This document shows, piece after piece, positions 24,909 through 44,973 of a stretch of DNA of 64,000 bases (positions are counted from its first letter, which is position 1; the number at the start of each line of letters is the position of its first letter). Origin of the DNA: an uncultured beta proteobacterium (GTDB lineage Bacteria > Pseudomonadota > Gammaproteobacteria > Burkholderiales > Burkholderiaceae_C); the NCBI GenBank assembly GCA_903828235.1, contig CAIKLM010000045.1:1-64000 (forward strand), given 5' to 3'. The notes under the pieces were generated by a model. That model was not told the origin of the DNA, did no database searches, and saw only the letters and a list, made by a program, of their open reading frames with translations. The translations under genes and the position numbers were made by a program.

Positions 24909-24995
24909 TGGTGCCCGGAGCGGGACTCGAACCCGCATGCTCTTGCGAGCTAGGGGTTTTAAGCCCCCTGCGTCTGCCGATTTCGCCATCCGGGC
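24909..24995 (-). tRNA. tRNA-Leu (anticodon TAA)
   Basis: The minus strand folds into an 87-nt class II tRNA with acceptor GCCCGGA/TCCGGGC, a long variable arm, anticodon loop CTTAAAA (anticodon TAA), T-arm GCGGGTTCGAGTCCCGC and encoded CCA. It reads UUA/UUG codons. It is the third tRNA of a Gly-Cys-Leu group. Confidence 0.95.
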
Positions 24996-25021
24996 GGCGG
25001 GCGCGGGCGCGGCTGATAGGG

Positions 25022-25095
25022 TGGAGGCGCGACCGGGAGTCGAACCCGGCTAGACGGATTTGCAATCCGTTGCATAACCGCTTTGCTATCGCGCC
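25022..25095 (-). tRNA. tRNA-Cys (anticodon GCA)
   Basis: A 74-nt tRNA on the minus strand: acceptor GGCGCGA/TCGCGCC, anticodon loop TTGCAAA (anticodon GCA), T-arm CCGGGTTCGACTCCCGG and encoded CCA. It lies 26 bp upstream of tRNA-Leu in the same direction. Confidence 0.95.
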
Positions 25096-25120
25096 AGGGA
25101 TAGCTGGCTTGGCATTCTCA

Positions 25121-25150
25121 GCCAAAAAGAAGGGAAGCCGAAGCTTCCCT
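25121..25150 (-). terminator. Intrinsic terminator between tRNA-Gly and tRNA-Cys
   Basis: On the minus strand an 8-bp stem (AGGGAAGC / GCTTCCCT) with a TTCG tetraloop is followed by TCTTTTT. It stands 13 nt after tRNA-Gly. tRNA-Cys and tRNA-Leu therefore need readthrough or their own promoter. Confidence 0.8.
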
Positions 25151-25162
25151 GTCTTTGAAATC

Positions 25163-25238
25163 TGGAGCGGGATAAGAGGCTCGAACTCTCGACCTATACC
25201 TTGGCAAGGTATCGCTCTACCAACTGAGCTAATCCCGC
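25163..25238 (-). tRNA. tRNA-Gly (anticodon GCC)
   Basis: A 76-nt tRNA on the minus strand: acceptor GCGGGAT, D-arm TAGCTCAGTTGGTAGAGC, anticodon loop TTGCCAA (anticodon GCC), T-arm GAGTTCGAGCCTC and encoded CCA. It is preceded by a good promoter at 25301-25330. Confidence 0.95.
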
Positions 25239-31304: not shown

Positions 31305-31391
31305 TGGTGCGCGGGGTCGGACTCGAACCGACACGCCCGTGAAGGCGTCAGGACCTAAACCTGGTGCGTCTACCGATTTCGCCACCCGCGC
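31305..31391 (-). tRNA. tRNA-Leu (anticodon TAG)
   Basis: An 87-nt class II tRNA on the minus strand: acceptor GCGCGGG/CCCGCGC, anticodon loop TTTAGGT (anticodon TAG), long variable arm, T-arm TCGGTTCGAGTCCGA and encoded CCA. It decodes CUA, the codon used twice in the leuA leader peptide in this window. Confidence 0.95.
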
Positions 31392-42376: not shown

Positions 42377-43918
42377 TCAGCCCTGCGCCGCCACGCGCTC
42401 GGCCTTGCTGTGCAGCTTGTTCAGCGCCGACAGGTAGGCCTTGGCAGAGGCGACGACGATGTCCGGGTCGGCCCCCACCCCGTTGACCACGCGGCCGCCG
42501 TGCTGCAGCCGCACGGTGACCTCGCCCTGCGATTCTGTGGAACCGCTGGTGATGGCATTCACCGAATACAGCACCATCTCGGCACCACTGTTCACCTTCG
42601 ACTCGATCGCCTTGAGGCTGGCGTCGACCGGACCGTTGCCGTCGCTGTCGGCGTGGAGTTCGACGCCGCCGGCGGCAAAGGCGACCCGCGCGTGGGGACG
42701 CTCGCCGGTCTCGCTGCGCTGGGCGAGCGATAGAAGACGGTAGTGCTCCTGCTCGGCCGTGACGCTCTCGTCGCTGACCAGCGCGATGATGTCCTCGTCG
42801 AAGATCTCGGCCTTGCGGTCGGCCAGGTCCTTGAAGCGCATGAAGGCGGCGTTGACCTCGGCCTCGGACTCCATCTCGATGCCGAGGTCCTGAAGCCGCT
42901 GCTTGAAGGCATTGCGGCCGCTGAGCTTGCCCAGCACGATCTTGTTGGCGGCCCAGCCGACGTCCTCGGCGCGCATGATCTCGTAGGTGTCGCGCGCCTT
43001 GAGCACGCCGTCCTGGTGGATGCCGCTGGCGTGCGCGAAGGCGTTGGCGCCGACGACCGCCTTGTTGGGCTGCACGACGAAGCCGGTGGTCTGGCTGACC
43101 ATGCGGCTGGCCGGCACGATCTGCGTGGTGTCGATGCCGATGTCGAGGCCGAAGTAGTCGCGCCGCGTCCGCACGGCCATGACGATCTCCTCGAGGCTGC
43201 AGTTGCCGGCGCGCTCGCCCAGGCCGTTGATCGTGCACTCCACCTGCCGGGCACCGCCGATCTTCACGCCGGCCAGCGAGTTGGCCACCGCCATGCCCAG
43301 GTCGTTGTGGCAGTGCACGCTCCAGATCGCGCGGCCGCTGTTGGGGATGCGCTCGCGCAGCGTGCGGATGAACTCGCCGTACAGCTCGGGCACGGCGTAG
43401 CCCACGGTGTCGGGGATGTTGATCGTGGTGGCGCCCTCGGCGATCACGGCCTCGAGCACGCGGCACAGGAAGTCGGGGTCGCTGCGGTAGCCGTCCTCGG
43501 GGCTGAACTCGATGTCGTCGCAGTGCTGCCGCGCGAAGCGCACCGACAGCTTCGCCTGCTCGAGCACCTGCTCGCGCGTCATGCGCAGTTTCTTCTCCAT
43601 GTGCAGCTCGCTGGTGGCGATGAAGGTGTGGATGCGCGAGCGGGCCGCGCCCTTCAGCGCCTCGGCGGCGCGCCCGATGTCGCGGTCGTTGGCGCGCGCC
43701 AGCGAGCACACGGTGCTGTCCTTGATGGCCTGCGCGATGGCGCGCACCGCCTCGAAGTCGCCGTTGCTGCTGGCGGCGAAGCCGGCCTCGATGACGTCGA
43801 CCTTCAGCCGCTCGAGCTGCCGCGCGATGCGCAGCTTCTCGTCGCGCGTCATCGAGGCGCCGGGGCTCTGCTCGCCGTCGCGCAGCGTGGTGTCGAAGAT
43901 GATGAGCTTGTCGGTCAT
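42377..43918 (-). CDS. leuA: 2-isopropylmalate synthase
   Basis: 513 residues, catalyses the first committed step of leucine synthesis (acetyl-CoA + 2-oxoisovalerate). The catalytic TIM barrel shows [19 protein letters not shown], the metal-binding [15 protein letters not shown], and [11 protein letters not shown]. The C-terminal regulatory domain for leucine feedback is present (about 390-510, [21 protein letters not shown]). AAAGG lies 7 nt before the ATG. It is preceded by a leader peptide and terminator. Confidence 0.97.
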
Positions 43919-43970: not shown

Positions 43971-44010
43971 CAAAGACAAACGGCCCGCTGCTGTGCGCTG
44001 GCGGGCCGTT
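43971..44010 (-). terminator. leuA attenuator terminator
   Basis: On the minus strand a perfect 10-bp stem AACGGCCCGC / GCGGGCCGTT with a 12-nt loop is followed by TGTCTTTG. It lies after the leader peptide and 52 bp before the leuA ATG. The T-run is interrupted, suggesting leaky termination. Confidence 0.7.
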
Positions 44011-44058
44011 GATCGGGGAAGACGGGGCGGTCGTTCGGGTGTGGACGGTCGCGTTCGA

Positions 44059-44115
44059 TCAGGGCAGCCGCAGCGCGGTGCCTAGCTCTAGCGACGGAAT
44101 CCGGGTCGAAGACAT
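44059..44115 (-). CDS. leuL: leuA leader peptide
   Basis: An 18-codon ORF reading MSSTRIPSLELGTALRLP. It has four Leu in the last ten residues, and the first two are CTA, a rare codon in this high-G+C genome. It ends 48 bp before the terminator hairpin upstream of leuA. The segment GCGCTGCGG (44068-44076) can pair with the 5' arm and loop of that terminator (CAGCGC and CCG). A ribosome stalled at CTA would leave this segment free, and one at the stop codon would cover it. This matches classic attenuation; the gene name is by analogy. Confidence 0.68.
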   Translation of the reverse strand: MSSTRIPSLELGTALRLP

Positions 44116-44121
44116 GCAGGG

Positions 44122-44127
44122 AATGTA
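44122..44127 (-). promoter_or_regulatory. Possible -10 element before the leuA leader
   Basis: TACATT on the minus strand ends 6 bp before the leader ATG. If used, transcription would start at or near the ATG. Read-through from pssA is the alternative source of leuA mRNA. Confidence 0.35.
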
Positions 44128-44148
44128 GCACGCGCGCGGCATCGCGCC

Positions 44149-44973
44149 TCAGGGGTGCAGGCCCTTCTCGTCGGGCTCGTCGGTGGACAGCGCCACCACG
44201 CTGGCGTGCCGGCCCTTGAACTTGCGCCAGGCGTACACGGCGTAGCCCGACAGCGCGTACAGGCAGAAGATGCCGAACAGCACCTTGGGCGGGTCCAGCG
44301 CCACCAGCGCGATCACCAGCATCACCGCGATGAGCACCGCGAACGGCACCGTGCGCCGCCCGCCCCAGACCTTGAAGCTGTAGAACGGCGCGTTGGTGAC
44401 CATCGACAGGCCCGCGTACAGCGTGATGGCGAAGGCCGACCACTCCAGCCAGTCGATGCGGCTGACGCCCTTGAAGCCCGAGTCGTCCATGACCCAGATG
44501 AAGCCGATCACCAGCGCCGCCGCGGCCGGGCTGGGCAGTCCCTGGAAGAAGCGCTTGTCGACGACGCCGATGTTGACGTTGAAGCGCGCCAGGCGAAGTG
44601 CCGCGCCGGCGATGTACACGAAGGCCGGGATCCAGCCCAGGCGCCCCAGGTCCTGCAGCGCCCACTGGTACATGATCAGCGCCGGCGCGGCCCCGAAGGC
44701 CACCATGTCCGACAGGCTGTCCATCTGCTCGCCGAACGCGCTCTGCGAGTTCGTCATGCGCGCGACGCGGCCGTCGAGGCTGTCGAGCACCGCGGCCACG
44801 AAGATGGCGATGCAGGCGGCCTCGAAGCGGCCGTTGATGGCCATCACGATGCCGTAGAACGCCGAGAACAGCGCCGCCAGCGTGATCGCGTTGGGCAGCA
44901 CGTAGATGCCGCGCCGGCGCGGCGGCACCGGTGCAGTGTCTTCGTCGGGCGGGAGGTTGGGGTCGTCGCTCAC
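44149..44973 (-). CDS. pssA: CDP-diacylglycerol-serine O-phosphatidyltransferase
   Basis: 274 residues, an integral membrane enzyme that makes phosphatidylserine. The CDP-alcohol phosphatidyltransferase motif is visible in DSLDGRVARMTNSQSAFGEQ followed by MDSLSDMVAFG. Six to eight membrane segments follow YVLPNAITLAALFSAFYGI. The GTG start at 44973 was chosen as the only start before the first membrane segment with the usual short polar N-terminus. It lies 43 bp after ilvC; pssA in an ilv-leu cluster is common in Betaproteobacteria. Confidence 0.95.
   Translation of the reverse strand: MSDDPNLPPDEDTAPVPPRRRGIYVLPNAITLAALFSAFYGIVMAINGRFEAACIAIFVAAVLDSLDGRVARMTNSQSAFGEQMDSLSDMVAFGAAPALIMYQWALQDLGRLGWIPAFVYIAGAALRLARFNVNIGVVDKRFFQGLPSPAAAALVIGFIWVMDDSGFKGVSRIDWLEWSAFAITLYAGLSMVTNAPFYSFKVWGGRRTVPFAVLIAVMLVIALVALDPPKVLFGIFCLYALSGYAVYAWRKFKGRHASVVALSTDEPDEKGLHP

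Follow-up and report, generated by a model that had tools for sequence, protein, structure and literature searches.

The attenuator of the enterobacterial leu operon (leuL) is presumably what Rfam describes as Leu_leader, and attenuators in proteobacteria were reportedly surveyed by Vitreschak et al. in 2004. According to excerpts of the sources cited here and below, the leu leader peptide of E. coli has 28 residues, four of them Leu (PMC6123439), and the leu leader of S. typhimurium contains three CUA codons, whose replacement by CUG lowered sensitivity (PMC1183508). Trans roles have been reported for both the RNA and the peptide of S. meliloti rnTrpL (PMC7298713), and leaderless transcripts of B. 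cenocepacia are immediately preceded by a TA-rich promoter motif (PMC4603805). Among the matches listed by our literature search, none dealt with a leuA leader of Betaproteobacteria; the term leuA is absent from the main texts of PMC2965389, PMC8632094 and PMC4603805, and the term isopropylmalate from those of PMC4603805 and PMC11109978. An earlier mention is possible, since PMC6123439 cites Vitreschak et al. 2004 for leaders in various Gram-negatives.

The window analysed here is a stretch of 64,000 nucleotides from an uncultured beta proteobacterium with a genome of about 4.5 Mb. The original prediction placed a classic leuA attenuator with a Leu leader peptide in the gap between pssA and leuA, where an extended -10 element, a leader ORF, a hairpin and a T-rich tail follow one another on the minus strand (Table 1). 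The conserved ORF, its CTA codons, the terminator and a covarying antiterminator bear this out, and we consider it very probable that the element is a ribosome-mediated transcription attenuator that would make leuA respond to leucine. This reading rests on comparison (the parts, their conservation, their covariation and the promoter spacing); transcription start, translation, kinetics and leucine response we infer.

Table 1. Features of the leuA leader region and its neighbours, in coordinates of the window.
Feature	Position	Strand	Basis
Gene order ilvB-ilvH-ilvC-pssA-leuA		-	ORFs; names assigned by inspection, HMM test for leuA
pssA-like gene, upstream of leuA	44149..44973	-	ORF; name from the original prediction; used as tblastn query
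Extended -10 element TGCTACATT (hexamer TACATT 44127-44122)	44122..44130	-	sequence; TG in 133/136 family leaders
Leader ORF, 18 codons and stop, MSSTRIPSLELGTALRLP*	44059..44115	-	sequence; start predicted at ATG or within 1-2 nt
Regulatory codons CTA GAG CTA	44083..44091	-	sequence and CTA enrichment in family leaders
Antiterminator 5' strand GCGCTGCGGCTGCCCTGATCG, sharing nucleotides with the final codons and stop of the leader	44056..44076	-	fold; covariation in relatives
Antiterminator 3' strand CGATCAACGGCCCGCCAGCGC, spanning the 5' arm of the terminator and half its loop	43995..44015	-	fold; alignment
Intrinsic terminator hairpin (5' arm 44010-44001, loop 44000-43989, 3' arm 43988-43979)	43979..44010	-	sequence; family alignment
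T-rich tail TGTCTTTG after the stem	43971..43978	-	sequence; at least 4 T in 8 nt in 132/136 family elements
leuA, 2-isopropylmalate synthase, 513 aa, presumed regulated gene	42377..43918	-	NF002087, 905.8 bits (cutoff 729)
tRNA-Leu(TAG), reads CTA	31305..31391	-	tRNA scan of the window

The tRNA-Leu(TAG) gene said to lie in the same window is indeed there, although its presence says little; a tRNA cluster Leu(TAA)-Cys-Gly occupies 24909-25238 on the minus strand. By eye, no attenuator was seen before ilvB. In an Rfam scan of the window at the gathering score, the SucA RNA motif (RF01070; 15112-15197, minus strand, 71.3 bits, gathering score 40) was the sole match besides tRNAs. Leu_leader gave no gathering-score match in the window and was not among the three matches of the region at E<=10. 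Two candidate families were tried and rejected: Bp2_287 (RF02424) exceeded its cut-off in 0 of 100 genomes of the order, its listed matches (12/100 genomes) lying at none of the leuA places, and BjrC68 (RF02353) matched weakly everywhere (34/37 genomes of the genus and 9/14 control genomes), with no score above the cut-off, and the places listed for it include no leuA leader.

Regions upstream of leuA were collected from genomes of the same genus, the same family and the same order and from the best 80 of 587 named loci; with identical last 150 nt merged and loci with less than 150 nt upstream dropped, there were 288 unique loci (an earlier step omitted four loci and six duplicates). The family set comprises 208 loci, 142 from the genome sample and 66 from named records assigned by a LeuA identity of 83-90%, and the relatives recognised by LeuA identity have records named Rubrivivax, Piscinibacter, Ideonella, Hydrogenophaga, Acidovorax, Limnohabitans and Polaromonas. 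To be called, a leader ORF needed 12-50 codons, three or more of them for Leu, and a TANNNT hexamer 5-9 nt upstream of its start codon (ATG or GTG). Such a leader is present in 134 of the 141 family leuA loci with pssA less than 600 nt upstream (87/91 for genome-sample and 47/50 for named-record loci), the seven loci without it having gaps of 8-110 nt; one doubtful leader (L279), which begins before the pssA stop, was kept in the family set. When the pssA-leuA gap was aligned across relatives, the check proposed at the outset, the ORF, the CTA codons, the terminator and the antiterminator pairing were all found to be kept in the family, and the lack of conservation that would tell against an attenuator was not found. 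A leader ORF with codons for the end product, Leu, is conserved ahead of leuA, and its translation is predicted.

The family leaders are mostly 16-24 residues long, with N-termini that vary widely among relatives and with CTA codons mostly interspersed with other codons. An 18-residue Leu peptide was indeed located on the minus strand of the window between pssA and leuA, and its Leu codons read CTA, CTA, CTG, CTG. The rarity attributed to the first two agrees with the counts: CTA makes up 2/4 Leu codons in this leader and 271/646 in the 136 family leaders, versus 1/157 in leuA, pssA, ilvC, ilvH and ilvB of the window. At least one CTA occurs in 134 of the 136 leaders, two being without it. As a control codon CTA has a precedent, because the leu leader of S. 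typhimurium used CUA (PMC1183508). Given this enrichment in leaders and the folding of the 191-nt region of the window, which is better than that of 197 of 200 shuffles, the parts seen in the window exceed chance.

Upstream of the ORF, the extended -10 element of the window ends 6 nt before the leader ATG. While a hexamer 5-9 nt from the start was part of the calling criterion for leaders, this does not hold for the TG, which 133 of the 136 family leaders show when their hexamers are superimposed, or for the clustering of hexamer ends at 6-7 nt from the start codon (126/136); among other ATG or GTG triplets of the same regions, 15 of 3860 had a hexamer at such a distance. No -35 signal was seen in the 136 leaders aligned in this way. 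A simple promoter and terminator scanner, whose loop limit is 8 nt and whose promoter rule needs a -35 element, listed neither feature at the window locus. With 6-7 nt between the -10 element and the start codon, transcription should begin at the start codon itself, which would leave the leader without a Shine-Dalgarno sequence. The leader mRNA is thus probably leaderless, to judge by this spacing, an arrangement that is plausible in this order because leaderless transcripts are found in B. cenocepacia (PMC4603805). It is also probable that leuA has its own promoter ahead of the leader, beside possible read-through from pssA. The mid-operon position originally assigned to the attenuator therefore has to be qualified: it does lie behind pssA, but with a conserved extended -10 element and a probable promoter of its own, mid-operon is at best half the story.

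An intrinsic terminator, at which termination is predicted, lies between the leader ORF and leuA. The stem expected after the leader, AACGGCCCGC / GCGGGCCGTT, is a perfect 10 bp with a 12-nt loop and runs directly into the T-rich tail. Family hairpins after the leader stop have a median of eight G-C pairs, followed by at least 4 T in 8 nt in 132/136 cases and at least 6 T in 95/136. The alignment and covariance model were built from 42 of 80 non-redundant elements, in which 95.7% of the terminator pair cells are standard; the invariant columns of the family alignment lie in the hairpin arms, and within the window's genus the terminator loops resemble one another in sequence as well. The pairing proposed between GCGCTGCGG in the leader and the 5' arm and loop of the terminator was recovered (the partner sequence being CCGC-CAGCGC), and the antiterminator fold of the window adds GCC/GGC and TGATCG/CGATCA pairs to it.

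Pairing between the 5' arm of the terminator and the part of the leader around CGGG holds in 88.9% of cells of the 42 aligned elements. For terminator and antiterminator alike, the share paired and the covariation score lie above all 500 shuffles and all slides, whereas the antiterminator has only three further pair types, fewer than the average of 4.1 after shuffling; its outermost pair is unpaired in 18/42 rows. The base before the leader CGGG and that after the terminator GCCCG combine as A-T in 44, G-C in 32, G-T in 11 and A-C in one of the 88 loci with A or G, the other 48 of 136 having a different base there or no motif (28/136, the window's own locus included, are without an NCGGG motif), and the split between A/G and T/C may follow clades, so the covariation cells are not independent events. 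Duplexes between each leader and its own 5' arm average -15.28 kcal/mol, compared with -14.52 (sd 0.14) when partners were swapped between loci, the cognate value being unreached in 200 swaps, and with -13.43 (sd 0.27) in 50 shuffles of the leader.

The dependence of these structures on the ribosome was modelled on the assumption that RNA is free from 14 nt past the start of the A-site codon. If the first CTA occupies the A site, the partial transcript of the window forms the antiterminator at -30.0 kcal/mol, and with the ribosome at the second CTA a shorter one at -21.2 kcal/mol, while with the ribosome at the stop codon no antiterminator is obtained and the terminator forms. The same outcome had been foreseen in the original prediction, in which a ribosome stalled at the first CTA leaves GCGCTGCGG free and one at the stop covers it. 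In 130 of the 136 leaders, those with fewer than 4 T or without CTA being excluded, at least half of the terminator 5' arm is sequestered at 119 loci with the ribosome at the first CTA, at 97 with it at the last CTA and at 21 with it at the stop. The corresponding figures with shuffled upstream sequence are 88, 89 and 20, so a large part of the contrast comes from geometry alone, and the first CTA is the only position at which sequence makes a clear further contribution. When the full leader is folded, the terminator still wins even if the ribosome stands at the first CTA (-34.9 kcal/mol, versus -30.0 for the antiterminator of the partial transcript), so that antitermination would have to be kinetic; in the window the antiterminator is also predicted without a ribosome, before the 3' arm is made. 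Folding prediction and covariation support a mutually exclusive antiterminator dependent on ribosome position.

In the mechanism we propose, RNA polymerase would start at the leader's own ATG from the extended -10 promoter, and ribosomes would bind the bare 5' end of the leader RNA, a leaderless initiation suggested by the spacing. With charged tRNA-Leu(UAG) plentiful, the ribosome would pass the CTA codons and reach the stop, where it would cover the leader tail (GCGG...TGATCG) and block the antiterminator; the 10-bp hairpin would then form and transcription would halt before leuA. With leucine short, the ribosome would wait at the first CTA, leaving the tail free to pair with CGATCA and the hairpin 5' arm before the 3' arm is made, and polymerase would read into leuA. 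The enzyme would probably be made only when leucine runs short, and many relatives possess this putative switch.

The covariance model gave 104 strong matches (E<=1e-6) in 103 of 120 family genomes, which include some sources of training sequences. Eighty-six matches were placed on the contig of leuA, 54 of them within 300 nt upstream of the gene and 32 at 1.4-2.6 kb upstream; two others lie on another contig than leuA and 16 are unplaced, the coordinates of leuA being absent from the listing. Ten weak matches (E above 1e-6) were fetched, nine without isopropylmalate synthase as the longest next ORF and one (L364) a leuA leader. In L363, the one case scanned among the 32 distant ones, the intervening gene encodes a second-type isopropylmalate synthase (NF002991, TIGR00970; 866.9 bits, cutoff 455), and four further fetched elements outside the 32 (L355, L367, L368, L370) precede a protein with the same start. 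The attenuator element can sit ahead of the second-type gene. The leuA loci that are not within 600 nt behind pssA had been considered as a negative control that has lost the leader (2/67 with leader), a use that was abandoned, since a second-type gene ends at most 450 nt upstream in 64 of the 67 and the element stands 1.4-2.6 kb upstream in 32 of the 86 placed matches. For the three exceptions, the standard call gives a leader at L145 and L307, and a looser rule gives one at L150. One genome (G104) carries two copies of the attenuator (C77:111319-111447 and C12:550-674, the latter L355), one before leuA and one before the type-2 gene.

These placements also bear on an alternative, that the hairpin is a plain terminator of the pssA operon, with an unrelated leuA promoter and an incidental ORF. 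It would be nothing unusual for a terminator to stand between pssA and leuA, and the invariant alignment columns lie in the hairpin arms. However, in the 136 family leaders the -10 element is upstream of the hairpin (by the calling rule), so leuA transcripts must cross it; the CTA enrichment, the promoter-ATG spacing and the leader-terminator covariation would be left unexplained, and in 32 of the 86 placed matches the element is 1.4-2.6 kb away from leuA, while fetched cases stand before a second-type isopropylmalate synthase. We regard this explanation as very improbable. A role in trans for the terminated leader RNA or its peptide, in the style of S. meliloti trpL and with attenuation secondary, would fit the similarity of loop sequences within the window's genus and the fact that rnTrpL is itself a leaderless terminated leader (PMC7298713), but it too appears very improbable when peptide N-termini differ so widely and the conserved features are those required in cis. 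Least credible, indeed close to excluded in our judgement, is that the element works as a riboswitch with a ligand or falls into some other RNA family already known: Bp2_287 matches weakly over its full length on the opposite strand (12.9 bits, E 0.85) and BjrC68 matches the terminator half of the element in one relative, L005 (25.5 bits, E 0.011), yet both scores are below the gathering score (70 and 39, respectively), and what is conserved is an ORF carrying Leu codons. Two other sub-gathering matches were obtained in the Rfam scan of ten relatives.

Other Burkholderiales families also have a Leu leader, probably leaderless, before many leuA genes; it was called in 58 of 80 leuA loci and in 54 of 77 after the removal of L049, which is the end of pssA, and of L318, L319 and L328, which entered through the leader pattern itself; the counts for promoter, hairpin, fold and tail pairing given below (n=58) still contain these four. 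In this group the -10 element ends 6-9 nt before the ATG, TTGC stands 20-23 nt upstream of the hexamer, the extended -10 is found in only 2/58 and CTA accounts for 34 of 420 Leu codons. The ORF mostly ends in LLLR..R (49/58, by a loose motif), and the first 15 nt past its stop are 41-56% C and 5-7% G. The downstream stretch folds with a mean z of -1.2 (31/58 below -1), and an RNAalifold consensus of the 58 leaders gave no structure. After the best hairpin, at least 4 T in 8 nt are found in 24/58, versus 132/136 in the window's family, and at least 6 T in 4/58 versus 95/136; a T-tract terminator is present in L172 and L174. The leader tail folds no better than its dinucleotide shuffles do (mean z 0.05), and at least four G-C pairs can form in the tail of 45 of the 49 leaders with an LLR-type end, compared with 57% of synonymous resamples, 9/58 having been set aside first.

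A pattern of 18 fixed bases derived for these leaders had 38 matches in 36 of 150 genomes of the order (three for the reversed control); 22 stand no more than 400 nt ahead of a gene for isopropylmalate synthase (leuA in 21 cases, type-2-like in one), and among the 37 that were classified a further five precede type-2-like genes and ten fall inside frames of more than 300 codons. In a class-wide sample of 369, the pattern had no match, a result of little weight for Burkholderiales, to which only four of the 369 belong. Leaders of the ...LLLR..R kind were also observed ahead of type-2-like isopropylmalate synthase genes of other families (L321, L322, L323, L330, L331, L336), and by eye a motif like CACAATTCG recurs after the C-rich stretch in L036, L038, L044, L173, L175, L207, L217 and L221.

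The leader of the other families is perhaps the same kind of sensor with another output, for which Rho is a candidate. A wider picture is possible, which we hold tentatively and at a little under an even chance: throughout much of Burkholderiales a leaderless Leu leader would precede the gene for the enzyme that opens leucine synthesis, whichever type of isopropylmalate synthase it is; the ...LLLR..R version found in many other families, with its possible tail mini-hairpin, its C-rich and G-poor stretch and a second hairpin mostly with a weak U-tract or none, would act by Rho or translation instead of an intrinsic terminator; and at this single regulatory site both the type of promoter and the mode of termination would set the Rubrivivax/Comamonadaceae lineage apart from its sisters. 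Such a pair of architectures at the same locus in one order, with a strong intrinsic terminator or with a weak one or none, would make it testable how attenuators switch termination mechanism while sensor peptide and place are kept.

The kind of mechanism is already known, whereas the lineage, the probable leaderless start and the contrast with sister families probably are new. For Betaproteobacteria the element would represent an instance of amino-acid attenuation that is conserved widely, without a gathering-score Rfam match, probably leaderless and with an antiterminator that overlaps the stop codon. It differs from the actinobacterial LEU element before leuA, a pseudoknot in which Leu codons pair with the leuA Shine-Dalgarno box (PMC1262725, in excerpts that name no terminator), in having an intrinsic terminator. 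With the uORF attenuator of Corynebacterium ilvB-II (PMC10272879, PMC11109978), likened here by description, it shares branched-chain codons in a uORF and the choice between antiterminator and terminator, although gene and organism are different. In S. meliloti trpL the RNA begins with the leader ATG and a terminator follows the ORF (PMC7298713), an arrangement that is predicted here too, but that leader, from an alphaproteobacterium, is a Trp leader and the present one a Leu leader. Like enterobacterial leuL, which attenuates leuABCD, the element has a short Leu leader peptide with CUA control codons; unlike it, the family leaders are mostly 16-24 residues long and predicted to be leaderless, their CTA codons are mostly interspersed, and the antiterminator would be formed from the leader tail and the stop codon.
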